Made by a program: the position numbers and the translations under genes
Source of the DNA: Pirellulales bacterium
GTDB taxonomy: Bacteria > Planctomycetota > Planctomycetia > Pirellulales > S012-138
Assembly: GCA_028066245.1 (NCBI GenBank)
Contig: JALCBR010000019.1
Coordinates: forward strand, 1-53,097
Direction: 5' to 3'
DNA length: 53,097 nt
In this document: piece by piece, positions 21,220 through 38,265 of the stretch
How positions within the stretch are numbered: the stretch's first letter is position 1
How the letters are laid out: each line of letters opens with the position of its first letter
Notes under the pieces: model-generated
Database searches by the model: none
Told to the model about the DNA's origin: nothing
The model's input: only the letters and a program-made list of their open reading frames with translations

Positions 21220-22833
21220 CTAGCGCTCATAGTTTGGATAAACACGGTCCGCCGCGCGAATGTAAGCGACTTCCCCAGCGACAATTGCTTGCTCAACATA
21301 CGTTCGATAATCTAACGGTGGACCGTTGAGGATCAGCAAGTCAGCATCTTTACCTGCCTCAATGCTACCAATCCGATCATCAACTCCCAGCATGCGAGCA
21401 GGAACAATCGTGAGGCTTTCCAACGCGGTTTGGTTAGACGCACCACCACGAACGGCAAAGGCCGCCTCGAGCGGGAGGCTCGTGAGGTCTCGCCCGGCGA
21501 TCCCCCCCATGCTGACGGACGAACTGAGCGCAGCCGTGGCGAATGGCACGCCGAACTGTTCGAAAATGCCAGTTGACTCAATTGAACTGCCTGTACTTTC
21601 TTCTTGCCCGGACCGAGCCTGGCGTCGCTGGCGCGGCGTATAGACGACCGAGACGTTGGCCTCACTGATTTCCTTGGCGACAACCCACCCTTCCACGACA
21701 CCGGTCAGGATGAGGTTGTAATCCAGCTCTTCAGCCAAAGCAATCATGTCACGGATCTCATTAACCGTGTTGGCTTGAATTCTCAGTGGAATCTCTTTGC
21801 GCAGCAGACGTTGTAACCCCGAGTTCCCCCCGCGCCGCGTGTTACGAGATCTCTGAGTACCACTCTGCTCGCCGCCTTCACGTGCGCTTTGTCCGCGCGC
21901 GTTTGAGCTGGAACTTCCGGAAGATTGGCCCTCCATTTGCTCACGAGCTTTTCTGATGTTTGCCCGCCAATTGTGGCGGTTGAGCGCTCCGGAAAGAGCG
22001 CCTGAAGACAGGTCATAAAATGCAGACTGTTTCATGATCATCGGATCCAAACGTCCATAACTCAGCTTGATGATCACATGGTCTTGGGGATTTGGAGCGG
22101 AAGGGGTATCAGGCATGATGGGCTTTGTGGGGAGGATTGGTAGGCCACAACAAGGGCAAAGTGCCGTGTCCGCAGGGCCAAAGTCCTTTTCTTCTTGTGT
22201 GATGAGAGTTTCCGGATCAGGCTCTAATCCCAAGAATCGCTCAATGGGCGCGCCGCTGCGCCCCCGGCGTCCCCGTGCTCCACCGCCAACCTGAACACAG
22301 CCAGAGGTAATGCCCACGCCAAGAGAGTATTTGATGTTACGGTCAAATGGATTAACCGTATCTGCAAGTTGATTATTGTTGCCGGAGTTTCCACCACCTC
22401 GCCCACCACGACCGCCCACGCCTACCCCACTCATCTGTACTGCCACGAATCCAGGCGTGATGACTTTACCCGAGGCATCAATTTCCTTGGAGCCTTTGGG
22501 GATAGTTACGTTTTGTCCAACTTCCAAAATCTTGCCATCTTGAACCAAGACGGTGCCTGCCCGAATAATCCCATCAGTGACAGTGTGAATATCGGCGCCG
22601 GTGATCGCCGTGACAGGGCCGGGCTGGTCCTTGCTCTGTTCCTCGCCTTCTTTTTTTGTCGCTTCAGTTTGTTTGCCCTCCTGGCTGGCTTTCTGCTCTT
22701 GACCTGTGCGGCGGCGCGCTTGCAAGCCGTCTTGCGCATAGGCAAACGGTGAGGCAAAAGCGACACAGGCGGAGGCCACACAAACGACGCCGGCAATCAA
22801 ATGCCTGTGAGCTTGTAGCAGATTAGTTTTCAT
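21220..22833 (-). CDS. Exported amidohydrolase-like protein 7, metal motif lost
   Basis: This is the last gene of a seven-gene array, 537 residues with a signal peptide (cleavage near PFAYAQDG). It has the amidohydrolase composite beta-sandwich and TIM-barrel layout: TDGIIRAGTVLVQDGKILEVG near the N-terminus and the C-terminal signature MLGVDDRIGSIEAGKDADLLIL. Where active relatives have PGxIEAHSH this protein has PGFVAVQMS, so both motif histidines are gone. The later HxxxH and DHG positions are also replaced (LRIQANTVNE, LILTGVVEG). A Gly/Arg-rich stretch (GVGGRGGRGGG) and a Ser/Gly/Arg-rich insert (GSSSSNARG) interrupt the barrel. A CPCCGLP motif (about residue 226) could bind a metal. Its start overlaps the stop of gene 6 by 11 bp. 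Confidence 0.85.
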   Translation of the reverse strand: MKTNLLQAHRHLIAGVVCVASACVAFASPFAYAQDGLQARRRTGQEQKASQEGKQTEATKKEGEEQSKDQPGPVTAITGADIHTVTDGIIRAGTVLVQDGKILEVGQNVTIPKGSKEIDASGKVITPGFVAVQMSGVGVGGRGGRGGGNSGNNNQLADTVNPFDRNIKYSLGVGITSGCVQVGGGARGRRGRSGAPIERFLGLEPDPETLITQEEKDFGPADTALCPCCGLPILPTKPIMPDTPSAPNPQDHVIIKLSYGRLDPMIMKQSAFYDLSSGALSGALNRHNWRANIRKAREQMEGQSSGSSSSNARGQSAREGGEQSGTQRSRNTRRGGNSGLQRLLRKEIPLRIQANTVNEIRDMIALAEELDYNLILTGVVEGWVVAKEISEANVSVVYTPRQRRQARSGQEESTGSSIESTGIFEQFGVPFATAALSSSVSMGGIAGRDLTSLPLEAAFAVRGGASNQTALESLTIVPARMLGVDDRIGSIEAGKDADLLILNGPPLDYRTYVEQAIVAGEVAYIRAADRVYPNYER

Positions 22834-24082
22834 GGACGGTCCTCCCTTCGACCATCACTTGTTCTAGACGCGAACCAGTTTCTAACGGATCGCCATCAAA
22901 GATCAGCAGGTTGGCTTGTTTGTTCTCTTCCAAGGATCCCAAAGTCTCCTCCATACCGATCAACTTAGCAGGCCCGATAGTGACTGCTTGGAGTGCGGCT
23001 TCGCGCGGAAGCCCAGATTTGACGAGCATGGAGATGACGAACATTGGGTCATCTTGATGGGCGTTGAGCTGTCCCCGGTTGAGCGAGAAGGAAAACACAA
23101 ATGGAACGTTATTGTCCAGAGCCATTCGAGCGATGTTCACCCGTTCTGATGTATACGGAACATTGTCAATGCCAGGCTGCAGGATGAGAGTGATTTTGCG
23201 GCTGCTCAATTCCCCCATGACTTCATAGAGATTGGAGCCTGAACAAACCATTGCAACTTTGACGGCCTCATGATCCCCCAAGGCTTTGAGCAAGTGGAGA
23301 ACCGTAGCCGTGTTGTTGACATTCACAAACAAAGGCTGATCGCCCGCGCGAACCTGATTCCACAATTCCGCTGTGTCCGTCGTGTTCTCTCCTTCTTGTT
23401 CCTGCTGATCACTTTGGTCTTGCACCGGAGCGGAAGTCATATCAAAGGGTGATTCTTCGCTGCGGTCACGCCCGCGACTTCTGCGCCTGCCGCTGGCCGT
23501 TGGAGGTTTAAGACCGTTGCGGACGAAATTCAAAGAGGCTGTTTGATTTGTCACTGTGGCAAACAAAAACCCGTCAGGCTTGAGCAACAGGTTCTCCAAA
23601 TCGCTTGGCACGATCTGAGCGACCGCCGATTGCCCCGTGCCAGATTGGACCAAGTTGGCAGTTGTGATGCCACTCCTGGAGAAAGGGACCCAGTTGACTT
23701 CATAGGGGTAGAAATACTCAGACAAGCGCCGCAAGCTTCCGCGCCTCCCTCCACCATTCCCTCCCTGGTTGTTGAAGACAAAGTAGGGATCGACAATGCC
23801 TGGCATGATAGTCTTGCCCGTGGCATCCACAAGGCGTGCGTCATCGGGCACATCAGCGTTGACGCCAGCGGCAATGATCTTGCCGTCACGAATAACGAGC
23901 GTGGCGTTTTCCATGCGGCCGTCTGGCCCCATAGTTTCCAATGTGGCGTTCCGGAACGCAACCGTGCCACTTGCCATGCCTGTTTGTGCAGAAACTCGCC
24001 CACATAGCACCAGCACGACTATCGCGAACAAGCTGGTCCCTGAGAGCGTTCTGAGGAACACCGATTTTAAAACGCAGGGCAT
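22823..24082 (-). CDS. Exported amidohydrolase-like protein 6, metal motif lost
   Basis: This 419-residue protein has a signal peptide (hydrophobic stretch near residues 12-30, ending VSAQTG). The family N-terminus (MENATLVIRDGKIIAAG) and C-terminus (LIGMEETLGSLEENKQANLLIFDGDPLE) are clear. The HxH site reads PGIVDPYFV, with neither histidine. The later His positions are also lost (PLFVNVNNTAT, KVAMVCSGSN). Between the first barrel strands and PLFVNV there is an Arg/Ser/Glu/Gln-rich low-complexity insert of about 45 residues (RRRSRGRDRSEESP, DQSDQQEQEGEN). Catalysis by the usual metal mechanism is unlikely. It lies 73 bp after gene 5 and overlaps gene 7. Confidence 0.85.
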   Translation of the reverse strand: MPCVLKSVFLRTLSGTSLFAIVVLVLCGRVSAQTGMASGTVAFRNATLETMGPDGRMENATLVIRDGKIIAAGVNADVPDDARLVDATGKTIMPGIVDPYFVFNNQGGNGGGRRGSLRRLSEYFYPYEVNWVPFSRSGITTANLVQSGTGQSAVAQIVPSDLENLLLKPDGFLFATVTNQTASLNFVRNGLKPPTASGRRRSRGRDRSEESPFDMTSAPVQDQSDQQEQEGENTTDTAELWNQVRAGDQPLFVNVNNTATVLHLLKALGDHEAVKVAMVCSGSNLYEVMGELSSRKITLILQPGIDNVPYTSERVNIARMALDNNVPFVFSFSLNRGQLNAHQDDPMFVISMLVKSGLPREAALQAVTIGPAKLIGMEETLGSLEENKQANLLIFDGDPLETGSRLEQVMVEGRTVHEN

Positions 24083-24155
24083 ACCTTAGCTCCAGGAAAG
24101 TTGAGCCGTGATGAGGTTGAGTTCATTCACGGGATTCCGGTCATCAAAGTGTTGA

Positions 24156-25502
24156 TCAAAAACGCCGTCGGTCTTTGGTGATATCATAAACGCTTTGCCC
24201 ATCAATAAAGACCTGCTTGATGTAATTGCGCGGGTCAATGATGGAGCCAGTCACGATAAGGATGTCCGCGTCTTTGCCGACTTCCAACGAACCCACGCGA
24301 TCATCAATCATCAAAGCTTTGGCGGCCTCAATGGTCAGGCCGCGAATGGCTTTTTCTTCATCCCAACCGTAGCGGACAGCCATAGTCGCTTGAAAGAACA
24401 GTTCTTCTTGCGGCACAACAGGGGCATCCGTGTTGACACCCAAGGCTGTCACCCCGCGTTTGGCATATTCACTAACAACACCCAAAACTTGTCCGGTATC
24501 GGAATCGCGATAGAAGCCTCGCGGGCCCGCCATGACAGGGATGTTGCGTTTGGCGAGTTCCGGCCCAACGAGAAACCCGTTGAATGTTCCGTGATCAATC
24601 ACAATCCGCAAGTTCATCTCGTCATGGAGCATCCGGACGGAAGACATGACCACCTGATGCTGTTGCGTATGAACGACAACAGGAATTTCGTGATGAAAGA
24701 GCGGCTTGAAGTTCTCCAACCTCAGGTTGAACTCTGGCGGCTGCGAGGCCCGCCCAGCTTCATAATCATCCCACTGACGGACATACATCTGGCCTTCCAT
24801 CAGTTGCTGGCGGATGACGTAGTTCATGCCCATTCGGCTGGACCCAGTCTCGCCTGTGCGTCGCTCAGGATTTCCGGCTTGAGCGATTTTAAGCACACCG
24901 GGAGCTTTGATGATGACGTCTTCCGGCTTGCCAGGCCCGGTTTTCAAGAGCGCACCGAAGCCACCCATGTTGGTTCCGCTACCCGGAATGAAGCAGATCG
25001 TGGTGACTCCGCCAGCAATTGCCACTTTTAGCTGATCATTGTGAGGGATGATCTGATCCCAGTTCCGCATCTCCGGGTTGGTTTGGTAAACCATCTCATT
25101 CAGGTCACCAGAACCGCCAACATGGCTATGCGCTTCAATCATCCCCGGCATGGCGAACATGTCAGAATGATCGATAACGTTATAACCCTCAGGGATTTCA
25201 ATTTCGCTGCGCGAACCTATGGCTTCAATCTTGCCGTTGCTGATCAAAATGGTGCCGTTGGAAATGGGATCACCGACGCAGGTCAGGATCTTTCCAACCA
25301 GCAAAGCCACATTGAGCTTCTCAGCTGTTTGCTCAGACGATTTCTGCGGCGAACCAAGAAGCTCAAGCTCCGAGCTGGGACTGGAAGGCGAACTTCCCGA
25401 AGCCGCAGTTGTGCCATCCTCAACGTTGTTCGAATAATGCGCGAAGCCCATCACCGGAACAAGCAACATGATCGCAAACGCGGTTAACGCACGACGGATC
25501 AT
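24156..25502 (-). CDS. Exported amidohydrolase 5, metal-binding residues intact
   Basis: This 448-residue protein is the only array member with a complete-looking active site: HSH at 125-127 in PGMIEAHSHVGG, His278 and His282 in VVVHTQQHQ, His304 in VIDHGTFNG, and Asp359 in GVNTDAPV. Lys199 or Lys205 (IIKAPGVLKIAQ) could bridge metals. The C-terminal signature is LMIDDRVGSLEVGKDADILIV. It is closest in layout to imidazolonepropionase-like amidohydrolases, which hydrolyse C-N bonds in cyclic amides or peptides; the substrate is unknown. The signal peptide (MIRRALTAFAIMLLVPVMGFAH) places it outside the cytoplasm. Its ATG overlaps the stop of gene 4 (ATGA), implying translational coupling. Confidence 0.9.
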   Translation of the reverse strand: MIRRALTAFAIMLLVPVMGFAHYSNNVEDGTTAASGSSPSSPSSELELLGSPQKSSEQTAEKLNVALLVGKILTCVGDPISNGTILISNGKIEAIGSRSEIEIPEGYNVIDHSDMFAMPGMIEAHSHVGGSGDLNEMVYQTNPEMRNWDQIIPHNDQLKVAIAGGVTTICFIPGSGTNMGGFGALLKTGPGKPEDVIIKAPGVLKIAQAGNPERRTGETGSSRMGMNYVIRQQLMEGQMYVRQWDDYEAGRASQPPEFNLRLENFKPLFHHEIPVVVHTQQHQVVMSSVRMLHDEMNLRIVIDHGTFNGFLVGPELAKRNIPVMAGPRGFYRDSDTGQVLGVVSEYAKRGVTALGVNTDAPVVPQEELFFQATMAVRYGWDEEKAIRGLTIEAAKALMIDDRVGSLEVGKDADILIVTGSIIDPRNYIKQVFIDGQSVYDITKDRRRF

Positions 25503-28180
25503 CGTCCGTTCTCCTTTTCATAAACCCATTGCCCGTCAATCATCACAGCGAGCACTTTGGTTGAAAGTTCAAAAGGGGGGCCGCTGAGGACAACCAAGTC
25601 CGCATCTTTGCCTGCCTCTAATGAGCCAAAGTTGGCTTCGCTTGAGAGCAGTTCAGCCGCGCCATAGGTCAACCCTCGCAACGCATCTTCAGTTCCCAAT
25701 CCTTGATAGACGGCGAATTGAACCGCCTGAGGCAAATCGCGAACGCCGGTTGTGGCTTCAGACCGAAAACCGAAAGCGATTTGATCATTTGCCAACATCT
25801 GGGGGATGTTGAGCCGGCCGTCTTCACCCTCTGCGATTAACGCTGGCCCAGCACACACGTTGACATCTTGGCCATCCAGTAACTCAGGAAATCGCTTGAG
25901 GTCGTCGACACCGACAAGAATCGTGCGAATATCATTCTCTGTACGGAAAAGTTTCAGTGCGGCTTCAATCTCTGGTAGGGTTCGTGCTTCGACGAAAGCA
26001 GGAATCTGACCGGAAAAGAGCGCACGGTACGGTTCAAGGGCTTCATCAACCTCAGGCTTTTTGGGCGGTTGATCCTCTGCATCAGCACTGTCTTTCGTTC
26101 GCTGCTTTTCGTCTTTCGTCTCTTGGTTTTGTTCGGTCTGGCGCTGCTCATCGCCAGCGTCATCTTGGGTGCCACCTCGACGTCCACGACCTTGCAGCTG
26201 TTCTTGCATATCTTGTGAATTGGTCATGGCGATGTTGCCTTGACTGCCGCGCCCCTTCCTTCTGTCTTCCGTCTTCTGCCGGCTCTCTTCGGTCGTGCCG
26301 TCTTTACCACCATCAGATTGGTCGGAGGTTTCCTCATCTTCAGTGCTGGTTCGCTGCTGCGCTTCGTATTCAGCGAGCACTTGCTCATAGTTCTTCCAGC
26401 GCTCGTGATAGGCCTTACCTTGGGCGAGAGCCCTTTCGGCAGCCGGCACTCGCGAACTCAAATTGCCAGTCAACGGAAAACGCACGGCCACAGGATTGCC
26501 AACCACGCGGGCGTCGTCACCAAGTTTGAACGCGACCAGCGGAGATGGATTGTTGCCGCCACCGCCCAACAAGACCGTGGTTACACCAGATTCACGAGCA
26601 ACGGCAATCGCTGGATCGGCGGGGTCAATTCGCTCTGCCAGGTTGCTTTGCAAATTCAAATTGTTTCCCAGTGAAGCTCCCGCAGTTCCAACACTCGCGC
26701 CCAAATCAATAAAGCCAGGCACAATAACAGCATTGGGGTATTCGCGGACAGTTGCATCCAACGGAAGGGAAACACTCTCGCCTACGCTGCGCAAGGTTTT
26801 TCCCTTAACGACTACAGAAGCGTCATGCAGGAACTGCCCGTTGCCAGCGTAAACTCCTCCCGCGCGAATGGCAGTCGTCCGTGGGGATGGCTCACGCTCG
26901 TAAGCGGCTTCGCCATCGACATACGTCGCCCAAACCGTGGATCGCACGCTGAACGGCTCATCGGTCAACACAACGAAATCGGCCGCCCGTCCAACGGCCA
27001 ACGTTCCAACTTGATCATCAACCCCCATCAACTGGGCAGGCCAGCACGTGACAGCACACAAAGCCTCAGCACGCGTCAAGTCACCCTGCATGAACTGCCC
27101 GGCAACAAACAACATGTCGGACATGTCGTTGTCGTTTGCGGGGTAAACAGCCAGCGGAAAGCCCGCATCGACCAATTCGCGAGCCGATTCCCACGGACCA
27201 ACCTGCTGTTGGGCGTCTTCAGCTGACGGGTTGGAAAACTCGCCGGGACTCTGGCCGCGAAGAATCACGCCGCGGAGTTGTATTCGCGGTGCATCGTCAT
27301 CATCGAAGAATTCATCCAGTTCACGTGGATTAACCAAGACACTGGTCAGGTTGTTTTGTTTTGCAACCTGCATTGCCAACCGCACTTCCGCTGCGGTGTT
27401 CGCATCAAAACGAACCAGACCGCCATCGACTAAGTGGGCGACCAGTGCATCCATGACGCGGTCTGCTTCACTTTCTTGGACTTCACTCATCCGCTCTTTG
27501 GCAACGCGGAAAACGGCCCGGAGACCCGAAGCTGCCGCGGCAAGCGACCTGGCAAGTTGAGGTCGAGTTGGAACTATGGGGCGTTCTTCCGAAACAGGCC
27601 CAACCGGTGGCTCATAGATCGTGGGGGGATTCCGCGAGGCCGAAGTGAGAACTACGCGTAAGCTTTCATCGTCGGCCAGGAGTTGAGCGGATTTCCTGCC
27701 AACGGCTAGCTTGACGACTGCGCCGGTGCCAGAGATCAATCGCCCCCCGCCGGGAGAAAGTTGCACTGTGGTCACACCGCCCTTGAAAGCGTTGGAACGG
27801 TCCGCAAAGAAGTCAAAGCCATCGACAGCAGACACATACGGAGTCAACGCGCGATTGACGTTAGAACTCTCATCCGCGAAATCCGACTGCGCGATAACAA
27901 GCCCGGGAATGATGATCTTGTTCCCGAGGTCATGGACGTTCGCGCCCTCGGGTACTTTCATTTCATCACGTGAGCCCAGTGCCGTGATCTTGCCTTCCGT
28001 CACAACCATGACGGCATTCTGGATGGGCTCACCTGCGGCTGTGTAGATGCTCTCCACAAGATACACATCGACGACTTGTGCTGTCGCAATGCTGTCTGGC
28101 AAGACCGCAAGCGCAGCGAACCAAACCAACGCCGCGAAAGTTTTACCAGCAAGCCGACGTACGTGTGGAATTGCGTTCAT
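25499..28180 (-). CDS. Exported two-domain amidohydrolase-like protein 4, metal motifs lost
   Basis: The open frame extends to 28351 but the ATG at 28180 gives a good signal peptide (ALVWFAALAVLPDSIATAQ) and 893 residues. Two full amidohydrolase-like units are fused. Domain 1 runs from about residue 40 to 430 and ends LMGVDDQVGTLAVGRAADFVVL. Domain 2 ends LLSSEANFGSLEAGKDADLVVL. The HxH site reads PGLVIAQSD in domain 1 and PGFIDLGAS in domain 2, so neither can bind metal in the usual way. Domain 2 contains a highly charged, Gln/Glu/Lys/Asp-rich low-complexity insert of about 110 residues, encoded around 26045-26380, just before the strand GQIPAFVEA. Its stop overlaps the start of gene 5. Confidence 0.88.
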   Translation of the reverse strand: MNAIPHVRRLAGKTFAALVWFAALAVLPDSIATAQVVDVYLVESIYTAAGEPIQNAVMVVTEGKITALGSRDEMKVPEGANVHDLGNKIIIPGLVIAQSDFADESSNVNRALTPYVSAVDGFDFFADRSNAFKGGVTTVQLSPGGGRLISGTGAVVKLAVGRKSAQLLADDESLRVVLTSASRNPPTIYEPPVGPVSEERPIVPTRPQLARSLAAAASGLRAVFRVAKERMSEVQESEADRVMDALVAHLVDGGLVRFDANTAAEVRLAMQVAKQNNLTSVLVNPRELDEFFDDDDAPRIQLRGVILRGQSPGEFSNPSAEDAQQQVGPWESARELVDAGFPLAVYPANDNDMSDMLFVAGQFMQGDLTRAEALCAVTCWPAQLMGVDDQVGTLAVGRAADFVVLTDEPFSVRSTVWATYVDGEAAYEREPSPRTTAIRAGGVYAGNGQFLHDASVVVKGKTLRSVGESVSLPLDATVREYPNAVIVPGFIDLGASVGTAGASLGNNLNLQSNLAERIDPADPAIAVARESGVTTVLLGGGGNNPSPLVAFKLGDDARVVGNPVAVRFPLTGNLSSRVPAAERALAQGKAYHERWKNYEQVLAEYEAQQRTSTEDEETSDQSDGGKDGTTEESRQKTEDRRKGRGSQGNIAMTNSQDMQEQLQGRGRRGGTQDDAGDEQRQTEQNQETKDEKQRTKDSADAEDQPPKKPEVDEALEPYRALFSGQIPAFVEARTLPEIEAALKLFRTENDIRTILVGVDDLKRFPELLDGQDVNVCAGPALIAEGEDGRLNIPQMLANDQIAFGFRSEATTGVRDLPQAVQFAVYQGLGTEDALRGLTYGAAELLSSEANFGSLEAGKDADLVVLSGPPFELSTKVLAVMIDGQWVYEKENGR

Positions 28181-28244
28181 AGATCGCGTTTCCGATGAAT
28201 AGATAGAAAGTGCAAAAGGCACGGTTCGCCAGATACCCTGGAGG

Positions 28245-29495
28245 CTAGTTGTCTTTGGCGTCACCATTGAGCAGCCGACGCAGCTGCACGTCTGCCGAAC
28301 GTTCATAAATGACGGCGCCGTTGATGATTGTGGTTTCAACCCAGGTATCATTCTTCAACGGCTCGCCGGAGAGAATGACCAGATCGCCATCTTTGCCAAC
28401 TTCCAAAGATCCAATGAACTGATCGACACCGAGCATTCTGGCGGGGCGAATTGTCAGCGCAGCCAAAGCCTCGTCTCTTGGCATGCCGTACTTTACAGCC
28501 GTCGCGGCTTGATACCACAAGTAGTTGTTGCCTAAAGTCGAGTTGTTGGAACTCCCTGCTTGGAAAGTGAAAGGCACGCCCGCGGCGCGAAAGACCTCCG
28601 TCGTGACGATTCGTTCGCTTTCGTTTGTGCGAGGATCGGTTTCCCAAAACACCAGTGTGGAGTCTAGGATCACAGGCAGATTGGCCGCGGCGATTTGTTC
28701 AGCTGCTTTGTAACAATCTTGATCGAGAACAAGTGTCGCCTTGAATTCATAGTCCTTGGTTAATTGAACAGCGTGTGCCACATCCATCGCGTCAGCACAA
28801 TAGATATACGCAGGCATCTTCCCTGTAACCAATTTGACAATGGCCAGCTGAAGTTGCTGCCGTACGGCTTCTTTTAGCGTTGAGACGTCTGCGTCAGCAT
28901 TCTCTTCAGCAAAATCTTTTGCCGCATCCAGCTCGTGGCGAAGGGCTGATAGATGGCCCATGCGGCTCCTCCCGCCGGTGGGCGAAAGAGAAATCTTCAT
29001 TGCCGTGTTGCTCTTCAACACCATATCATCCACGAAAAGCCCGCTCGTCTTGATGACGGCGGCCTGCCCGGAAATCATGCCACTGTTGCCAGGGACCATG
29101 GCGGCGGACGTGACGCCATCGCGACGTGCTTGCTTGAAATAGGAACGCGAAGGGTCAATCCCATCCAAGACCGAAAGGTATGGCACGCTTGGGTTCGAGC
29201 TTTCATTTGCTTGGCTCAAGCCAGCAGCCGTGTGAGCTTCCACAAAGCCGGGCATCACGACTCTTCCTGTCGCGTCTACCACACTCGCTTCAACTGGAAT
29301 GGAGACATCCGCTCCTACGGCCGTGATCTTGCCGTCCACGATGACCACAACGCCGTTTTCGATCGGCTCGCCAGCCATCGTGATAATACGTCCGCCCTTG
29401 ACGGCGACGGTTTCTTGAGCGGACGACACCGAGGTGATCATGAATATGGCCGCCGCAACAAACGCCGCCACGAATCGCGGTGCCTGATGAGTCAT
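28245..29495 (-). CDS. Exported amidohydrolase-like protein 3, half of the HxH motif
   Basis: The open frame extends to 29576, but the ATG at 29495 gives a clean signal peptide (FVAAFVAAAIFMITSVSSAQE) and 416 residues. Family landmarks are IENGVVVIVDGKITAVGADV, the site PGFVEAHTA (first His kept, second replaced by Ala), the barrel region SLSPTGGRSRMGHLSALR, and the C-terminal MLGVDQFIGSLEVGKDGDLVIL. The later His ligands are replaced (AYIYCADAMD, TLVLDQDCY). It lies 64 bp upstream of gene 4. Probably not a standard metallohydrolase, though retention of one His makes it one of the two least degenerate inactive copies. Confidence 0.86.
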   Translation of the reverse strand: MTHQAPRFVAAFVAAAIFMITSVSSAQETVAVKGGRIITMAGEPIENGVVVIVDGKITAVGADVSIPVEASVVDATGRVVMPGFVEAHTAAGLSQANESSNPSVPYLSVLDGIDPSRSYFKQARRDGVTSAAMVPGNSGMISGQAAVIKTSGLFVDDMVLKSNTAMKISLSPTGGRSRMGHLSALRHELDAAKDFAEENADADVSTLKEAVRQQLQLAIVKLVTGKMPAYIYCADAMDVAHAVQLTKDYEFKATLVLDQDCYKAAEQIAAANLPVILDSTLVFWETDPRTNESERIVTTEVFRAAGVPFTFQAGSSNNSTLGNNYLWYQAATAVKYGMPRDEALAALTIRPARMLGVDQFIGSLEVGKDGDLVILSGEPLKNDTWVETTIINGAVIYERSADVQLRRLLNGDAKDN

Positions 29496-29588
29496 ATTGC
29501 GAGTGATTCGTGCCACGATGAGATCCTTGTCTTGATGTGCAAAGACAGTTGATTGCAAAGTTAAACAGGCGTTCATTGATCGCGAGAT

Positions 29589-30767
29589 TTACTGTTCAAA
29601 GACTTGCCCATTGACCATGACAAAGCGGATGCCAGTGGTGAACTCCAGTGGATCGCCATCAGTAACAACCAGGTCCGCATCCATCCCGGGAGCGATTGTG
29701 CCCACCCGGTCGGACACACCAATGAGCTCGGCAGGGGTTTTGGTAATCGCCTGCAAGGCTTTGCCAGGCTCCAAGCCAAACCGGCAAGCGAAACGTGCTT
29801 GCTCCAACAAATTGCCACCCGAGAAGGCAAACGTGATACCTGCCTTGGAAAGCAAGCCCGCCTGATTGTAGGCAAGCTCGGTTCGTTCTGGTCCGTTTGC
29901 GCTTCCGGTTGTCAACGAGCCGAGGATGACCGGTAAGCCAGCTGCAGCGACTTGCTCCGTAACTTTATAGGTTTCCTGCCCGCCAACGATGATGGGCGGC
30001 GCAAAAGCAAACTCTTCTCCAATTGTCAGCAGCGCCGTGATGTCGTGCGAGGTTCGCGCAACAGCCATGAGTGGACGTTGGCCGGAGAAACCGGATTCAA
30101 TATCGTCCCTTGCTTCGATGTCACGCCCGCGGCGAAGTTTGTCCAGCGTACTACGTAGAATCCAGACTACGCCCATCCGGTTGGTTGGCAATCGGTTGTA
30201 CAAGCCATCCGGACGGGCGCGGGCGCGGTTGCGACGCGCAGGGTCTGAGCACACACTGATAAACAAGGCCGCATCGTTCTGCAAAATCCTGGATTCCCTT
30301 TCTCCATTGGTTTTTGCCAAGCACGAGCAACCGGCGATCACGTTCTCTGTCCCGGGACAGATTGCCAGTGTTGTGGTTCCCGCCGCCAAGGCTTCGGCAA
30401 ACCCACGGTCATTCCAGTCGATTGCCAACGCGGGGCAAAAATCAGGCGTCAACTCCGCTGTGAACTCATCCGTACCGCCTGAAAGTCCGGTTTGCGTATA
30501 CGCATCGATAAACCCCGGCAACAAACAGGAGTCATCACCCAAATCCACGACTGTAACGCCAGCGGGGGCATTCACTGTGCCGCCAACCGCCGCGATCTTA
30601 CCATCGGTCACTAAGACTTGCCCCGGCGAAAGTGGATCACCGGTCATCGTGTAGACCGTGCCGGCCTTGTACAGCGTGGACTCCGCCGTGACAGACGTGG
30701 CGCAAGCAACGCCAAACAGCCCCAACGCAGCGCAAACACGCAAGACTGAAGTGATAGTCATATTCAT
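29589..30767 (-). CDS. Exported amidohydrolase-like protein 2, metal motif lost
   Basis: Three in-frame ATGs (30791, 30767, 30761) are possible; 30767 gives 392 residues and a compact signal peptide (VLRVCAALGLFGVACATSVTAE). The site PGFIDAYTQ replaces both motif histidines. Other landmarks are LAICPGTENVIAG, NRLPTNRMGVVWILR and the C-terminal LIGVSDRVGTIAPGMDADLVVTDGDPLE. The ligand-equivalent positions LMAVARTSHD and IIVGGQETY lack the expected His pattern. The start lies only a few bases to about 30 bases after the stop of gene 1, so the two are translationally close. An operon member of unknown biochemical role. Confidence 0.85.
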   Translation of the reverse strand: MNMTITSVLRVCAALGLFGVACATSVTAESTLYKAGTVYTMTGDPLSPGQVLVTDGKIAAVGGTVNAPAGVTVVDLGDDSCLLPGFIDAYTQTGLSGGTDEFTAELTPDFCPALAIDWNDRGFAEALAAGTTTLAICPGTENVIAGCSCLAKTNGERESRILQNDAALFISVCSDPARRNRARARPDGLYNRLPTNRMGVVWILRSTLDKLRRGRDIEARDDIESGFSGQRPLMAVARTSHDITALLTIGEEFAFAPPIIVGGQETYKVTEQVAAAGLPVILGSLTTGSANGPERTELAYNQAGLLSKAGITFAFSGGNLLEQARFACRFGLEPGKALQAITKTPAELIGVSDRVGTIAPGMDADLVVTDGDPLEFTTGIRFVMVNGQVFEQ

Positions 30768-30794
30768 CACGATCCAGGATCTGTAAGACATGCG

Positions 30795-33206
30795 CTAGTT
30801 CATGGCACCAGTTGATGTGCGAACGGTTTCCAACTCGCTTTGGATGAGAACGCGAACCGGAACCGCGCGCAAATCCAGCGGACTGCCAGTCCAAATAACA
30901 AAGTCGGCCACGCTTCCCTTATTTAGCTGGGCCGTACCGGTAGGCATGCCGACCATATCAGCGGCCGTTGCCGTCAATCCACGCAACGCCATCACGCTGG
31001 GCATCCCGGCGTTGACTGCCATTGCGGCCGTGACGCGAATCTCTTGCGGTGTTTGGCCGGAGAAGGCAATGGGAATCCTCGCATTGGCTGCTTTGGCCAG
31101 TTGCTGAGAGTAGGAATCGAAGTCGTTATCATCAAACGGGCGTGCGATGATGCCCATCCCTGCCGCGGAAATATCATTGGCTAAGCCTTGAATTCGCTCA
31201 GGATCCAGCAAGACGGAAGTGAAACCATGTTGCTGAGTTAAATTGATGGCAGCTTGGATCTCAGGCGCCGATTCTGCCGCGACCACCGCAGGCCGGCCAC
31301 CGGTCACCACAGCATCCACGTTGGCACGGCGCTCGCGCTCAATTGCTCTGGCGACAGGATCAGGCACATACAAACGGGTCATCGGCGTTGTGCCGCCAAA
31401 GAGCGAGTTCAAAAACATCACCTGTCCAACGAGCGAACTCGGCAGCCGATCGTTGCTCCGCGCGTCGCCGGAGAGCACAAACTTGCCAGCAATGTCATCC
31501 ACGACAATCGGCTTCTTCGCTCCTAAGCGAACATGGGCCATAACGCCTGCGGACGGGTTCACGGAAGTGGGCGCAAATCCGATGTTCACAAACCCCCCTG
31601 CGAGCATCTTTTTTGCGACAGGCGAACTTGCTTCGATGACGTCCGCCGCGCGGATCTGGCTTGAATCAGCTTCGGTGTCGTCGCTGAGCATGGACTGCTG
31701 CCCTAAATAGGAATGGGCATTGACCAATCCCGGCGTGACAACTCCATCACCAACATCAAAAACAGGAACGCCCTTGGGAATGGTAACCGTTTTGCCAATC
31801 GCGGCGACAAGGCCGTTTTGGATGAACATTTCCGCTGGCTGCATCTCGCCCACAGCGTTGAGCATTCGTTTGGTTCGAATGACATAGCTCTCAGGCATTT
31901 CTGCAGGCAGGTCCACGGTGGTAATGCTGGAATTGTTCGGAGATGCATCCGCATCTTCGTAAACCACTTCACCACGCGTCATCACCATTCTGGTGGAAGC
32001 AGCTGGATCCAACGGACTGCCGGCGAACACAGCGAGATCTGCTTGCATCCCTGGGGCAATGGATCCAATCTGATCGGCCACGCCCAAGACCCTCGCGGCT
32101 TCGACAGTGACAGCACGCAACGCGCTCTCCGCTTCAACGCCAGAAGCAACCGCCGCAGCGGCTTGAACTCGCACCATGCGAGACCCACGCGCTTCGGTTG
32201 AGTACGTCGCCAAGGCCCAGCGGCTTGTTGATTCCGCAATGCGCGAAAGCAACTGATCATCACGATCTCGACGATAGCTAGGAACGGCCCCGCTTTCCCA
32301 TGCGGGACCAACCACAACACGCGCCTGTCGGGCAGCCACGTCTGAGATAGCACTGCCAGGCGATGAAAGACCATCAACAATCAAATCGAACTCAAACTCG
32401 TCCGCCATTTCAAACGCGGCACGAACGACATCTTCCTGATGAGCTTCCAGTCGAAGTGGAACTTTTCGGTCGAGAACGAGTTTGATCAGCTCTTTGGTTT
32501 GATTAGGTTGAGCCGCTTGGCTACGTCTACCCCCCTGGTTGCCCTGCTGCCTATTGTTCCCGGTTAGGTTGGGAGGATCTTTGCCGTCTTTGACGGCTTG
32601 AAATGCTCGCTTGAAACGCCGAATCTGCGCCGCCCGTTCGCGAACGGTGTCACCAGTGATTCCCATCGCCGACTGTACGGCAACATCAGTCGCGATGACC
32701 AAATCTCGTACCGAATTCCCGGCTCCAACTCGCAGCACGGCGCCACGTCCACCAAACACGCCAGAATTACTTGGTTGGACATAGACAGCAGTCACGCCCT
32801 GTCGGGAAACCTCGCGCCAATCTTCTAAGAACGGATTTACACCATCCAAAATGTTGAGCGTTCCGCGGCTACTGGCCTCGTTTCGAGCAGCGGCAGTCAG
32901 CCACAACACACTACGACTATCGATCAAGCCGGGCGTGAGGATGTGACCCGTTAGATCCATCACCATTGCGCCCTCGGGTACTTTGACATCTTTGCCAACC
33001 GACTTAACCTTGCCCTTCTCCACTACCACGGAACCGACGAAGGTTCCCTGTTCCGTCATTGTGTGAATGGTGGCGCCTTGCAAGACAATTGTCTCGGCAG
33101 TATTCACATCCCCCGCAGATGCGAGCTTGCTAAGCGGAACGATGACAAACAGCGAGGCAAGAACTGCGCACAGCCCATGAGCAGTGGCCGATCGAAGAGC
33201 CCGCAT
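30795..33206 (-). CDS. Exported two-domain amidohydrolase-like protein 1, first gene of the array
   Basis: This 803-residue protein has a signal peptide (AVLASLFVIVPLSKLASA) and two amidohydrolase-like units. Domain 1 has PGLIDSRSV at the HxH position (both lost) and ends VLGVADQIGSIAPGMQADLAVF. Domain 2 has PGLVNAHSY (first His kept, second is Tyr) and ends MVGMPTGTAQLNKGSVADFVIW. Domain 1 carries an Asn/Gln/Arg-rich insert (GNNRQQGNQGGRRSQAAQ) just before the strand VPLRLEAHQED. This domain fusion parallels gene 4. It is the promoter-proximal gene of the array; 298 bp upstream separate it from bioD. Confidence 0.87.
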   Translation of the reverse strand: MRALRSATAHGLCAVLASLFVIVPLSKLASAGDVNTAETIVLQGATIHTMTEQGTFVGSVVVEKGKVKSVGKDVKVPEGAMVMDLTGHILTPGLIDSRSVLWLTAAARNEASSRGTLNILDGVNPFLEDWREVSRQGVTAVYVQPSNSGVFGGRGAVLRVGAGNSVRDLVIATDVAVQSAMGITGDTVRERAAQIRRFKRAFQAVKDGKDPPNLTGNNRQQGNQGGRRSQAAQPNQTKELIKLVLDRKVPLRLEAHQEDVVRAAFEMADEFEFDLIVDGLSSPGSAISDVAARQARVVVGPAWESGAVPSYRRDRDDQLLSRIAESTSRWALATYSTEARGSRMVRVQAAAAVASGVEAESALRAVTVEAARVLGVADQIGSIAPGMQADLAVFAGSPLDPAASTRMVMTRGEVVYEDADASPNNSSITTVDLPAEMPESYVIRTKRMLNAVGEMQPAEMFIQNGLVAAIGKTVTIPKGVPVFDVGDGVVTPGLVNAHSYLGQQSMLSDDTEADSSQIRAADVIEASSPVAKKMLAGGFVNIGFAPTSVNPSAGVMAHVRLGAKKPIVVDDIAGKFVLSGDARSNDRLPSSLVGQVMFLNSLFGGTTPMTRLYVPDPVARAIERERRANVDAVVTGGRPAVVAAESAPEIQAAINLTQQHGFTSVLLDPERIQGLANDISAAGMGIIARPFDDNDFDSYSQQLAKAANARIPIAFSGQTPQEIRVTAAMAVNAGMPSVMALRGLTATAADMVGMPTGTAQLNKGSVADFVIWTGSPLDLRAVPVRVLIQSELETVRTSTGAMN

Positions 33207-33504: not shown

Positions 33505-34215
33505 TTACTTTAGAGCCGTTCCTGAGCCAGTAATCAGAGACAGAAGTGGTGGTGCGGTTCGCCACAATTCTCCCTCAGCCAGTATGCGCGGAATACTCAT
33601 GATTTGAATGGCCTCTGGAACGAAGCTCCGCATACAGGCAATTGTGTCTTCAAAGGGGACATTGCTGGTATGTGATTCGCTGACGACGAGCGAGTGCAAC
33701 GAAATGTTCCGTGACTTCAGCGTCTCGATAGCCGTTAGCGTGTGGCTCAGGGCACCCAGGTAGTTTCCCATCACAAGGACAACTGGCCAGCCGATACCAT
33801 CCATCCAGTCGAGCATCGTCTGCCTCGGATTAATCGGCGCCATGACTCCACCTGCTCCTTCGACCAAGACGGTCGTTGAATCGTCATCCTCATGGTCGTT
33901 GCAGAACTGAATGACTTCGTCGAGCTCGATGGTGCGACGTTCCCGCTTCGCCGCCATATCGGGAGAAAGCGGCGTTTCAAAACGCCACGGTGAAATCTCG
34001 CGCACCAATTTCAGCGTTGGCTCACGACCACAGCTTTGTAGGATCAACGATGAATCGGAATCCGTGTCATGCGGTGAGTATCCCGTGATGATTGGCTTGA
34101 GCGCAACAACGCGTTCACCGCGCTGCCGGAGTTGCCAGCATAAGGACGTCGTCACAATCGTTTTTCCGACGCTTGTATCTGAAGCAGTGATGAAGAAGGA
34201 TCGCCTCTTGTTCAT
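33505..34215 (-). CDS. bioD: Dethiobiotin synthetase
   Basis: BioD closes the ureido ring of dethiobiotin from diaminopelargonate, CO2 and ATP. The ATG at 34215 is chosen because the protein then begins MNKRRSFFIT directly before the P-loop ASDTSVGKT (residues 11-19), giving 236 residues, the usual length. Upstream in-frame codons belong to the overlapping bioC region. Other family landmarks are KPIITGY, and VEGAGGVMAPI with the glycine-rich carbamate-binding turn. It begins two bases after the bioC stop and is the last gene of the bioF-bioH-bioC-bioD arm. Confidence 0.93.
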   Translation of the reverse strand: MNKRRSFFITASDTSVGKTIVTTSLCWQLRQRGERVVALKPIITGYSPHDTDSDSSLILQSCGREPTLKLVREISPWRFETPLSPDMAAKRERRTIELDEVIQFCNDHEDDDSTTVLVEGAGGVMAPINPRQTMLDWMDGIGWPVVLVMGNYLGALSHTLTAIETLKSRNISLHSLVVSESHTSNVPFEDTIACMRSFVPEAIQIMSIPRILAEGELWRTAPPLLSLITGSGTALK

Positions 34216-34217
34216 GG

Positions 34218-35012
34218 CTAAGCTCTCCTTAGTAACATGTACAGAATCTGCCACGTTACAGGCAGCCCTTGAGCAACACCGTGCTGTGTTGCATACGTTC
34301 GCTCGAGTCGTTCGAGCTGCCGCGGCGTCATCAATCCTTTCCGGCGACCAGAATGCGCATTTGTTGCGCCAATCGTCCGTAGCGATTCCATGAGCGAGCG
34401 AGCGTTTGAGTGGTGTTCGATCTTGGTCACCTCGTCCGACCAGGCAACTTCGAGCCCCGCGTCCGCCGCCCAACCGTGAACTGCCACCGGCTCAGCGAAC
34501 TGAGTGACATGCGGAGCACGATCAATGACCGAGAACGAATCTATGAGTTCGTGCAACGTTCCGCATGTTAGGGTCGAGACGATGGCATATGCGTCTTCTC
34601 TTAGCACGCGCGCGAACTCTTGAAAAACAACCTGTGGATCATTGATCCATTGCAGCATGAGTGATGAAAAGACGCCATCCACGCTCGCGTCAGTGAAAGG
34701 AACGCAATCGGCGCTGGCATGGACGACGCGGCAACCTCGCTTTTGAGCAATGCGGCACATTTCCACCGAAAAGTCTAGACCGATGATTCGCCAACAGTCG
34801 GACCGAGATTCATCGTATAGTGCGCCGGTTCCTGACCCCACGTCAACGACGAGGGAGCCCGGGCTCCAGAGTTCCCTGGCTTTCGCATAGCATGCCTTTC
34901 GAACAGATTGCTGTAGCCAAGCGGCGCTGTCATAGTGCTCTGCGGCGCGGCCAAATTTCCTTTGGACGGTCAAGGGATCGAGGCTTCTATATCCAGTTGT
35001 CGCTCGTGCCAT
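34218..35012 (-). CDS. bioC: Malonyl-ACP O-methyltransferase
   Basis: BioC methylates the free carboxyl of malonyl-ACP so that fatty acid synthesis can extend it to pimeloyl-ACP methyl ester. The 264-residue protein has the BioC-type N-terminus VQRKFGRAAEHYDSAAWLQ, the SAM-binding motif LVVDVGSGTGALYDE (about 54-68), and the post-motif IIGLDFSVEMCRIA. FSSLMLQWINDP is typical of the family. It lies 83 bp after the bioH-like gene and 2 bp before bioD, consistent with one transcription unit. Confidence 0.92.
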   Translation of the reverse strand: MARATTGYRSLDPLTVQRKFGRAAEHYDSAAWLQQSVRKACYAKARELWSPGSLVVDVGSGTGALYDESRSDCWRIIGLDFSVEMCRIAQKRGCRVVHASADCVPFTDASVDGVFSSLMLQWINDPQVVFQEFARVLREDAYAIVSTLTCGTLHELIDSFSVIDRAPHVTQFAEPVAVHGWAADAGLEVAWSDEVTKIEHHSNARSLMESLRTIGATNAHSGRRKGLMTPRQLERLERTYATQHGVAQGLPVTWQILYMLLRRA

Positions 35013-35095
35013 TCGGTCTTCTTCATCTCTTTTTGCGAAAGCAAACCCGGATGCCGTAAAGGGAACTCCTCAAAGACGATACTCATTGAAAGACT

Positions 35096-35806
35096 TCACC
35101 GAGAGTGCGCGTCGCCCGTAGGTTTTGGTTCAAAATGTGCCATAATCCATCTTTGCAGTTTGACCCCATCGTACCAGTGGGGAGCATGACCACACTGGTT
35201 CCACACGAGCAAAGTCGCATTTTCGATCCGGTCAGCAAAGCGCAATGAATGGAGGTAGTGGACCACGGCATCATTCTTACCGTGAACCAGCAGCGTGTTG
35301 GGAAAACCGCTGAAGTCAATCTCCTCACAACTGAACGCGCCCAGCACGTCAAGCCAAGGCAGCCAGTCGACTTCGGCGACGCGGTTGAAATCCTGGGATC
35401 GCATCGCCTGACGAACGGCACGAGCCCGTGCATCGTTCCAAGCAACAAGGTTCCAAGCCTTCTTCAGTGTCTTCTGCGGATCACGAATGTAGCGCTCGCG
35501 AAATTCCGCAAACTGGCTGCGGTCCATGCCCAACGGCAGATCTGCCGTCTCAACGAACTGATATGGAGTGGCAATCAGCGTCAGCAAACGCGGCCGGATA
35601 ATCTTTGCGGCGATTGCCCGAACGGCAAGCTGCCCCCCCAGCGACCAGGCAATGATCCGATCAACCGAGCGAGCCCTCTTCGCCATTTGCTCGAACACTT
35701 CATCAGTATCTCTGAAGCTCGTGTAGTCAAGACACTCGGCATCAGGAGAGATCAGTCGCAGCGTATCGGGTGCGTGGCCCCACCCACTTAGGGTCAGAGT
35801 TCGCAT
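35096..35806 (-). CDS. bioH: Pimeloyl-ACP methyl ester esterase-like alpha/beta hydrolase
   Basis: The 236-residue protein should remove the methyl ester from pimeloyl-ACP methyl ester, completing the BioC route. The nucleophile motif is AWSLGG, with Ala where BioH has Gly (GWSLGG). The acid is in HGKNDAVV and the base in QCGHAPHWY. The start MRTLTLSGWGHAPD recalls both BioH and the unrelated-in-name BioG group, whose nucleophile motif also begins with AWS; I therefore use bioH as a functional label and not a strict family call. It overlaps the 3' end of bioF by 13 bp, so translation is coupled. Confidence 0.8.
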   Translation of the reverse strand: MRTLTLSGWGHAPDTLRLISPDAECLDYTSFRDTDEVFEQMAKRARSVDRIIAWSLGGQLAVRAIAAKIIRPRLLTLIATPYQFVETADLPLGMDRSQFAEFRERYIRDPQKTLKKAWNLVAWNDARARAVRQAMRSQDFNRVAEVDWLPWLDVLGAFSCEEIDFSGFPNTLLVHGKNDAVVHYLHSLRFADRIENATLLVWNQCGHAPHWYDGVKLQRWIMAHFEPKPTGDAHSR

Positions 35807-36936
35807 GCGAGATGCTCCTTCAGCAGGTCAGCGACTGATTGAACATCCGTTTCATCGTGGAGCATTGAAAACGTGAACCGCAACCGTGAAGTACTCTCGG
35901 GGACTGTCGGTGGGCGGATGGCCGTGACCAAATAGCCGTTGGCTTCGAGCATCGCTGACAGATCCAATGCCCGCTTCTCATCCCTAACGATGACTGGCAC
36001 GATCGCGCTTTCTGCGCTCCTGAGTTCCAAACGTGACGAAAACAACTTCGCCAGCGCTAGCGCTCTTTCTCCTCTTTGCGGTTCCCGCTGCATCACTTTG
36101 ATGGCAGCTATTGATGCGGCAATTGTGGCTGGCGGAAGTGCGGTTGAATAAATCAGGGATCGCGCTGTCCCCTTGACAAAATCCACGAGTTGCCGCGTAC
36201 CAGCCACATAGCCTCCGTAGCTGCCAGCCGCTTTCGAGAGGGTCCCCATCATGACGTCAGTCGGAGCCGAGGTAACGATCGCCAACCCGTGCGCATCATC
36301 TGTCATGAGCCAGGCATCATTGTCTCCGGCCAATTCTGACAGCTGATCGAGCTGCGCCCGGTCGCCATCCATGCTAAAGACAGTTTCCGTCAAGATCAGG
36401 CAGTTCTCACAAGTTGGTCGGTATTTGGTTAGGAGCCGGCGGCAATGTTCAATGTTGTTATGGGCGAAACGCTTCAGCGTAGCTTGCGACAATTTCGCTC
36501 CATCGAGCATGCACGCATGAATATACTTGTCCGCCAAGATCAGATCGTTCGGTCCAACAAGCGCCGAGATAACTCCGAGGTTTGCCAGGTAGCCACTTCC
36601 AAAAACGCAGGCATCTTCGGCGCCTTTGAGCTGCGCGAGTTCTGACTCGAGCCGCTCATAGAGTGGATGATTGCCGGTGACAAGGCGCGAGGCTCCCGCC
36701 CCCGAGCCGTATCGATCCAATGCGTCGTGTGCCGCAGCCGTCACCTCTGGGTGTTGCGCCAAGCCTAAGTAGTCATTGCAACTAAATGAAACCAAAGACT
36801 TGCCGTCTCGCTTCACGTAGACACCATCAAACCGCTGACCTGAAATCGGCTGACGGTGCCGCTGTCTGCGCTCAAGCTGAATAAGCCTTGCCTGTAAAAC
36901 CGCGTCTAATTCGGGCATGCCTTCGTCAAATGGCAT
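35794..36936 (-). CDS. bioF: 8-amino-7-oxononanoate synthase
   Basis: BioF is a PLP enzyme that condenses pimeloyl-ACP with alanine. The 380-residue protein shows CNDYLGLAQHP (about 53-63), GSGAGASRLVTGNHPLYERLE, DDAHG (213-217, Asp contacting the PLP nitrogen), and the Schiff-base lysine in GTLSKAAGSYGG (Lys235). The ATG at 36936 is used; a second ATG six codons on is possible. It is the first gene of the minus-strand biotin arm and is divergent from bioB. Confidence 0.95.
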   Translation of the reverse strand: MPFDEGMPELDAVLQARLIQLERRQRHRQPISGQRFDGVYVKRDGKSLVSFSCNDYLGLAQHPEVTAAAHDALDRYGSGAGASRLVTGNHPLYERLESELAQLKGAEDACVFGSGYLANLGVISALVGPNDLILADKYIHACMLDGAKLSQATLKRFAHNNIEHCRRLLTKYRPTCENCLILTETVFSMDGDRAQLDQLSELAGDNDAWLMTDDAHGLAIVTSAPTDVMMGTLSKAAGSYGGYVAGTRQLVDFVKGTARSLIYSTALPPATIAASIAAIKVMQREPQRGERALALAKLFSSRLELRSAESAIVPVIVRDEKRALDLSAMLEANGYLVTAIRPPTVPESTSRLRFTFSMLHDETDVQSVADLLKEHLACEL

Positions 36937-37203
36937 TGAATAGTCGGTCGTGGCTCGCTAGTCTCATTCGCGTGTTTCCACGGCCATTTCCAGCTAAACT
37001 GTACACGTTGCCGTCTAACTTTGAAGGCCATCCCATCTCTAGGCTGGCCGGCGTTTATTACTTCCAGATGCTGATCGTGGCGGGACTGAGTGCTGGTGCG
37101 TCTCAGCCTTACTTGCTGGACCGCGGGTGAAACTCGTTGGAATTGGGGCAAGAGAAGGTCACGATCAGTGAATTCATCGGATCCCAATAGGAATCTTTGA
37201 TTG
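36937..37203. promoter_or_regulatory. Divergent bioF/bioB control region
   Basis: This 267-bp region separates the two biotin arms and must drive both. I looked for a BirA-type operator (a TTGTAAAC-like inverted repeat with a 14-16 bp spacer) and for a BioR-type TTATnnATAA site, and saw neither. AGGA at 37190-37193 is a possible but distant ribosome-binding site for bioB. Confidence 0.5.
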
Positions 37204-38193
37204 ATGTCGACAACACTTCGCCATGATTGGCAAAGCGACGAAGTGCTTGAGATTCTCAAGCAACCGTTTTCCGATCTGATTTTTGAAGCACAGTCCGTGC
37301 ACCGTCAGCACTTCCCGCCAAACCAGATCCAGGTATCGACGCTGCTTTCAATCAAGACAGGCGGATGTCCTGAAGACTGTGGCTACTGCCCACAGAGCGC
37401 GCATTTCGATACCGGAGTCAAGTCAGGCGAGTTGATGAAGCCTGAGCTTGTGCGGGCTGCGGCCGAGAACGCAAAGCAAGCGGGAGCGTCGAGGTTCTGC
37501 ATGGGAGCCGCCTGGCGATCGCCTCGAGATTCAGAGCTTGAATCAGTCTGTGACGCAATTGGTGAAGTCAAGGCGCTCGGGCTGGAAACCTGTGCAACGC
37601 TTGGAATGCTCACAGCGGACCAGGCGGAGAGGCTCAAGGCAGCCGGTCTCGACTACTACAATCACAACATCGATACCTCCGCAGGGTTTTATAAGAGCAT
37701 TATCTCGACGCGAACATATGACGATCGGCTCGAGACAATTTCACACGTCCAGGCAGCCGGCATGCGAGTTTGCTGCGGGGGCATCGTGGGAATGGGCGAG
37801 TCCCGCGAAGATCGCGCTGAGATGCTCCGGACGCTCGCGAACCTTTCGCGGCACCCCGAAAGCGTCCCGATCAATATGCTCGTCCAAGTCGCGGGAACTC
37901 GACTCGATGGAACGACACCGATGGACCCTTTCGAATTCGTGCGGACCATTGCTGTAGCGCGGATCTTGATGCCAAATTCTTTTGTGCGTTTGTCCGCCGG
38001 GCGCGAAGGGATGTGTGACGAATTGCAGGCGCTTTGTTTTTTGGCGGGAGCCAACTCGATATTCTCGGGAGAGAAATTACTGACGACTCCCAACGCGGAT
38101 GCAGACGATGATGAAGAGCTTCTGCGACGTCTAGGCATCAAGCCAATCGAGATGGCCGCGAGTGAAGTGGACACACCGTCAATGACAGCCTAG
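37204..38193 (+). CDS. bioB: Biotin synthase
   Basis: BioB inserts sulfur into dethiobiotin using SAM and two iron-sulfur clusters. The 329-residue protein (ATG at 37204, with an in-frame TTG directly before it) carries the radical SAM motif [13 protein letters not shown], with Cys55, Cys59 and Cys62. Other conserved pieces are [39 protein letters not shown] and [13 protein letters not shown], and RLSAGRE supplies the Arg ligand to the 2Fe-2S cluster. It is divergent from bioF and 72 bp ahead of bioA. Confidence 0.97.
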
Positions 38194-38265
38194 ACGGACG
38201 TACAAGTTGACGAGGGCATTGTGGCTGCCATTCGCTGAGTTCTTGGCGCATACGAGGGTTGGAAG

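Follow-up and report, generated by a model that had tools for sequence, protein, structure and literature searches.

The stretch analysed here (the window) comprises 53,097 nucleotides of contig JALCBR010000019.1 from a Pirellulales bacterium of the phylum Planctomycetota (GenBank assembly GCA_028066245.1), and carries seven same-strand open reading frames (ORFs) at positions 21220–33206, named G1–G7 in transcription order, with nine amidohydrolase-like domains (D1–D9). All seven proteins score above the Pfam cut-offs for Amidohydro_1 (PF01979) and Amidohydro_3 (PF07969), placing them within the amidohydrolase superfamily as a fold, with two domains each in G1 and G4 and one each in G2, G3, G5, G6, and G7. 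A first-pass annotation made from the DNA letters had proposed a seven-gene amidohydrolase-like array at this position, a proposal borne out by the ORFs and Pfam matches, and the nine strings it read at the metal-binding motif (SRSV, AHSY, AYTQ, AHTA, AQSD, LGAS, AHSH, PYFV, and VQMS) are all recovered exactly. The genes are as follows:

30795–33206, reverse strand: G1, 803 amino acids (aa), with degenerate domains D1 (~31938–33206, motif DSRSV) and D2 (~30795–31979, motif NAHSY), assigned from the ORF, Pfam PF01979, ligand counts, and orthologues.
29589–30791, reverse strand: G2, 400 aa, degenerate D3, motif DAYTQ, assigned from the ORF, Pfam, and ligand counts.
28245–29495, reverse strand: G3, degenerate D4, motif EAHTA, with the likely start ATG at 29495.
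25499–28180, reverse strand: G4, 893 aa from its likely start, degenerate D5 and D6 in a single chain.
24156–25502, reverse strand: G5, 448 aa, D7, the sole domain with all six metal ligands.
22823–24082, reverse strand: G6, 419 aa, degenerate D8, motif DPYFV.
21220–22833, reverse strand: G7, 537 aa, degenerate D9, motif AVQMS, with a CPCCGLP insert.

For G3 and G4 the longest ORF begins too far upstream; the likely true starts are ~29495 (MTHQAPRF...) and ~28180 (MNAIPHVR...) respectively, and the nominal 107 base pair (bp) overlap between these genes is therefore spurious. Genuine overlaps occur between G4 and G5 (4 bp) and between G6 and G7 (11 bp), with the remaining intergenic gaps short; the first-pass annotation had described tight packing with overlaps of 4–13 bp in places. 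G1–G7 would be co-transcribed as an operon-like unit. Signal peptides had been claimed for every protein, and a strongly hydrophobic, export-typical N-terminal segment is present in all seven, as judged by hydropathy only; the seven proteins are probably exported. The C-terminal GxxExGKDADL signature, also claimed for all, is present in a loose form, with D2 of G1 reading GTAQLNKGSVADF and G6 reading GSLEENKQANL.

BLAST searches of order and class samples with G5 returned clear orthologues of 43–76% identity, whose neighbouring genes match those of the window in content and order. A G5 alignment scanned against GTDB genomes yielded 206 relatives, and the best 80 of these 206 belong to the Planctomycetota (Pirellulaceae, Gemmatales, Tautonia, Phycisphaerae, and others) or to records labelled just bacterium. 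Tautonia sociabilis GM2012 (L091) is a carrier available in culture. The arrays fall into two clades, with clade 1, which includes the window, having seven genes, and clade 2 having eight genes, G1 being split into its two domains; in three loci the G1 domains and G2 are fused into a chain of ~1350 aa. Every form of the array contains nine domain slots, and 49 non-redundant complete arrays (26 from clade 1 and 23 from clade 2) were extracted, all sharing one slot order. Where flanking sequence sufficed, the array runs complete through G7 at every locus (56 of 56). Within a sample of the phylum, 103 of 392 genomes have G5 and ~93 of 368 have G7 (at least 285 bits), with every checked genome that appeared to hold G5 without G7, or the reverse, proving to be an array cut by a contig end. 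The array is kept whole and ordered across the phylum.

The metal set of G5 consists of H125, H127, K205, H278, H304, and D359, located as follows:

25122–25130, reverse strand: H125 and H127, the HxH ligands of G5, invariant in 58 sequences.
24888–24890, reverse strand: K205 of G5, a putative carboxylated lysine bridging two metals, a role assigned by homology; invariant in 58 sequences.
24669–24671, reverse strand: H278, ligand of G5, invariant in 58 sequences.
24591–24593, reverse strand: H304, ligand of G5, invariant in 58 sequences.
24426–24428, reverse strand: D359 of G5, ligand or base, invariant in 58 sequences.

An alignment of 441 domains, built from a 153-sequence seed alignment to which the remainder were added, shows six of six ligands in the D7 slot of all 49 arrays, as expected of a competent amidohydrolase. 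A further 14 arrays, mostly more distant, contain G5-type copies that are complete in 32 of 32 cases, with none of their other domains complete. The retention of the later His, His, and Asp by gene 5 alone had been noticed at first pass and is confirmed, with the strand-4 Lys, unlisted at that time, also found there. The ligand pattern, together with the prolidases and carboxypeptidases that are its nearest characterised relatives, suggests that G5 belongs to the TM0814 (3ooq) group as a binuclear amidohydrolase resembling subtype I, and that it probably cleaves an amide or peptide bond. All seven proteins score 34–86 bits against the NCBIfam equivalog XaaProDiPepCaul (NF051886), far below its cut-off of 500. 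Several lineages (loci L148–L156 and L158, from genomes G802, G854, G816, G740, G935, G1018, G953, G698, G721, and G672) carry the G5 slot, and no other, in two to four tandem copies, with all copies intact and no multiplication of a degenerate slot seen, which argues that the catalytic role is separable from the eight partner roles. Tandem duplicates of G5 are also carried by the named GTDB loci L095, L110, and L139. The C-terminus of G5 (24156–24176) is a conserved stretch of basic and aromatic residues (KDRRRF or a close variant), which may serve as a docking tail.

None of the 392 domains outside D7 (49 arrays by eight slots) has a complete metal set, with most retaining zero to two ligands and the maximum of four reached in three D2 domains. 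D4 keeps His 1 in 46 of 49 arrays and the Lys in 48 of 49, with little else, and D8 keeps no ligand in most arrays. Apparent second intact sites, with HxH at D6 in six clade 2 arrays and at D2 in L069, L071, L108, and L098–L100, were rejected as the full later ligand set is absent. The first-pass annotation had named an intact alternative metal site in the other copies as a finding that would count against its reading, however conservation reveals no phylum-wide His/Cys set of this kind, with no degenerate slot having two or more phylum-wide conserved His/Cys residues save D4, which has one His and one Cys. Conserved residues of D4 are H115, D138, D141, and C260, and those of D9 are W383, R401, R448, D449, and E456. 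Group-specific conserved blocks are found in D3 (RPDxxYxRxPTNRMG) and D9 (GRDLTSLPLEAAFAVRGG). The insert of G7 carries the motif CPCCGLPILPT; of the clade 1 arrays, 21 of 26 have the CxCC/G pattern, and all 23 clade 2 arrays lack it. Around the former metal positions, conservation is not clearly higher or lower than elsewhere in the barrel, apart from a weak rise in D1, and so favours neither of two roles, scaffold and substrate binder, that the first-pass annotation had suggested for the paralogues alongside that of surface proteins.

The loss of ligands is accompanied by retention of the fold. An AlphaFold2 model of G7 (mean predicted local distance difference test score, pLDDT, 81.6) matches Thermotoga TM0814 (3ooq) with a Z-score of 36.4 over 351 residues, the next entry having a Z-score of 24.2. 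The model of G4 (mean pLDDT 86.4, predicted template modelling score 0.76) contains two amidohydrolase domains, with 3ooq again the best match (template modelling score 0.83 by target length). Among solved structures 3ooq is also the nearest to G5 in sequence (E 8e-54; profile 3.5e-77), and the models thus give G4 and G7 the fold of the subgroup to which the intact enzyme belongs, in agreement with the original view of a conserved fold with a lost catalytic site, a complete set of metal ligands being missing from both. The degenerate domains thereby show the features of pseudoenzymes, namely a retained fold (by model for G4 and G7, and by Pfam match for the other slots), lost residues, and continued selection.

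Closely related pairs with unsaturated synonymous sites give ratios of nonsynonymous to synonymous substitution (dN/dS) of mostly 0.03–0.25 across all genes. In six of eight fully unsaturated pairs G5 has the lowest or joint lowest value; the ratio is higher for all genes in the L060/L066 pair. Every slot is under purifying selection, and the genes are therefore not pseudogenes. Pseudogene relatives, the other finding that had been named as counting against the first reading, were not encountered among the arrays, which are intact and ordered. In a maximum-likelihood tree D2–D9 each form a separate phylum-wide clade, with D1 not resolved, which implies that the nine roles were fixed before the lineages split and that the losses of the metal site are ancient. 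D7 and its intact counterparts from two other planctomycete arrangements cluster with moderate support. Within clade 1, D7 sequences share a mean identity of 0.70, against 0.32–0.52 for the other slots.

The two other arrangements, found in the same phylum, have TM0814-like amidohydrolases as their intact domains. In type A (L034, L036, L039, L041, L043, L045, L047, and L050) a degenerate and an intact domain share a protein of ~1040–1280 aa, followed by a degenerate protein of ~420–480 aa, and in type B (L032, L037, L038, L040, L042, L044, L046, L048, and L049) intact and degenerate domains are overlapping or fused. These pairs suggest that the coupling of intact with degenerate domains is a recurrent design in this subgroup. 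The type A pair of the window genome (L031, G000:C85, 9503–14105) contains three frameshifts, two in the large gene and one in the small, which may reflect decay or assembly error, while the nine-slot array of the same genome is intact.

The nine-slot order, the ligand pattern, purifying selection, the inseparability of the slots, and the retained fold of G4 and G7 are established. The reading we favour, with a probability of roughly 0.6, is that the array is an ancient exported module in which G5 is the sole catalytic subunit and the eight other domains are its obligate non-catalytic partners within a hetero-oligomer. The operon-like module would make an exported, multi-subunit metal hydrolase in the periplasm. 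Its eight degenerate domains would share the ancestral fold, having lost the metal site long ago and diverged into eight fixed roles. As homologous amidohydrolases are homo-oligomers, the partner positions of such an oligomer may here have been taken over by dedicated pseudoenzyme subunits, which could hold and shape the active site of G5 and perhaps feed substrate to it. More tentatively, and at somewhat less than even odds, the product may be an exported asymmetric hydrolase assembly of one catalytic and eight pseudoenzyme positions, all derived from a single ancestral amidohydrolase. Hetero-oligomerisation is favoured because no sufficiently flanked array is short of a member, and because of three precedents: ochratoxinase, a relative, is a homo-octamer of D4 symmetry (PMC11342369); collapsin response mediator proteins (CRMPs), PF01979 proteins that have lost most metal ligands, prefer heterotetramers (PMC4051505); and a pseudo-dihydroorotase (pDHO) is needed for aspartate transcarbamoylase (ATCase) activity (PMC7053772). 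By this reasoning the eight partners would assemble physically with G5.

Several observations weigh against such an assembly. What links G5 to its partners is co-conservation, in loci that were gathered through G5. The degenerate slots evolve faster than G5, with D1, D2, and D8 just 32–39% identical within clade 1, which is loose for tightly packed subunits, and conservation is not concentrated at any single identifiable surface. Additionally, K205 forms part of one scan pattern, making its invariance in those loci partly a matter of construction; the other five ligands are absent from the scan patterns, and the loci of the BLAST order and class samples and of the phylum sample were found with whole-protein queries.

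An unlikely, though the best surviving, alternative is that the eight domains are separate substrate-binding or surface proteins, which capture substrate such as peptides and pass it to G5 without forming a stable complex. The hydrophobic N-terminal export segment common to all the proteins fits such a role, as do the strongly conserved slot-specific blocks of D3 and D9, and the pocket of the barrel can persist without metals, as in CRMP-4 (PMC4051505). Independent binders would, however, be expected to be lost or reshuffled singly, and the 56 sufficiently flanked arrays are all complete and ordered; nor do the columns of the former site show clearly higher conservation than other parts of the barrel, D1 being a weak exception. 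Less probable still is that the degenerate domains remain enzymes, with another chemistry or with metal bound elsewhere. Whilst the conserved Arg, Asp, Glu, and Trp residues among those listed for D9 and D4, and the His and Lys kept by D4, could be taken to suggest this, the degenerate slots lack a phylum-wide His/Cys pair beyond the single His and single Cys of D4, and the CxCC insert of D9 is limited to one lineage. That the array represents decaying duplicates captured by chance in one genome is so improbable that we reject it, the broken pair on contig C85 notwithstanding, as the seven ORFs are intact, their order is conserved over the phylum, and dN/dS indicates purifying selection.

Beyond the array there are no conserved neighbours, with two local families found in four loci each. 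Upstream of the array (33505–39513) is a biotin-synthesis-like cluster (AAA_26/BioD-like, methyltransferase, alpha/beta hydrolase, class I/II aminotransferase, BATS radical SAM, and class III aminotransferase), which was dropped as a functional clue as it does not recur beside other arrays. An ORF of 1030 aa at 44172–47264 of the window encodes von Willebrand A domains and a glutamine-amidotransferase-like domain. An anti-phage defence system was also considered and rejected, with no PADLOC match for any of the seven proteins at E 1e-5.

Present in roughly one in four of the planctomycete genomes sampled, the array marks a hydrolase system that is large, conserved, probably exported, and unstudied. 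Inactive enzyme copies are common and pseudoenzyme partners are known. We know of no other conserved one-to-eight set of an enzyme and inactive paralogous domains, and if G5 and its partners do assemble, no other assembly of which we are aware would have so many non-catalytic paralogous subunits for each catalytic one. The general question of what non-catalytic paralogues do for the enzyme they accompany becomes testable with this array. The locus was not described in the literature on planctomycete amidohydrolases and superfamily pseudoenzymes that was covered, most subscription journals and preprints lying outside that coverage.

Among known systems, TM0814 (3ooq) shows the same HxH, His, His, and Asp pattern when aligned with G5, however it is a single protein whose entry names no function, whereas the intact copy in the array comes with eight degenerate ones. 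The next nearest folds are those of prolidases and Xaa-Arg/Lys carboxypeptidases (2p9b, 3feq/3n2c, 3mtw, and 3be7); to our knowledge neither these enzymes nor ochratoxinase have degenerate paralogues as partners. The CRMPs resemble the degenerate slots in lacking the hydrolase activity of their closest relative and in forming heterotetramers of paralogues (PMC4051505), but they are neuronal, cytosolic, and five in number, with no catalytic member fixed alongside them in one operon. The pDHO of Pseudomonas ATCase is likewise an inactive subunit of amidohydrolase fold that its partner needs (PMC7053772). In contrast to the array, however, that partner is a transcarbamoylase and no paralogue, and the pseudoenzyme is a single one where G5 is accompanied by eight.

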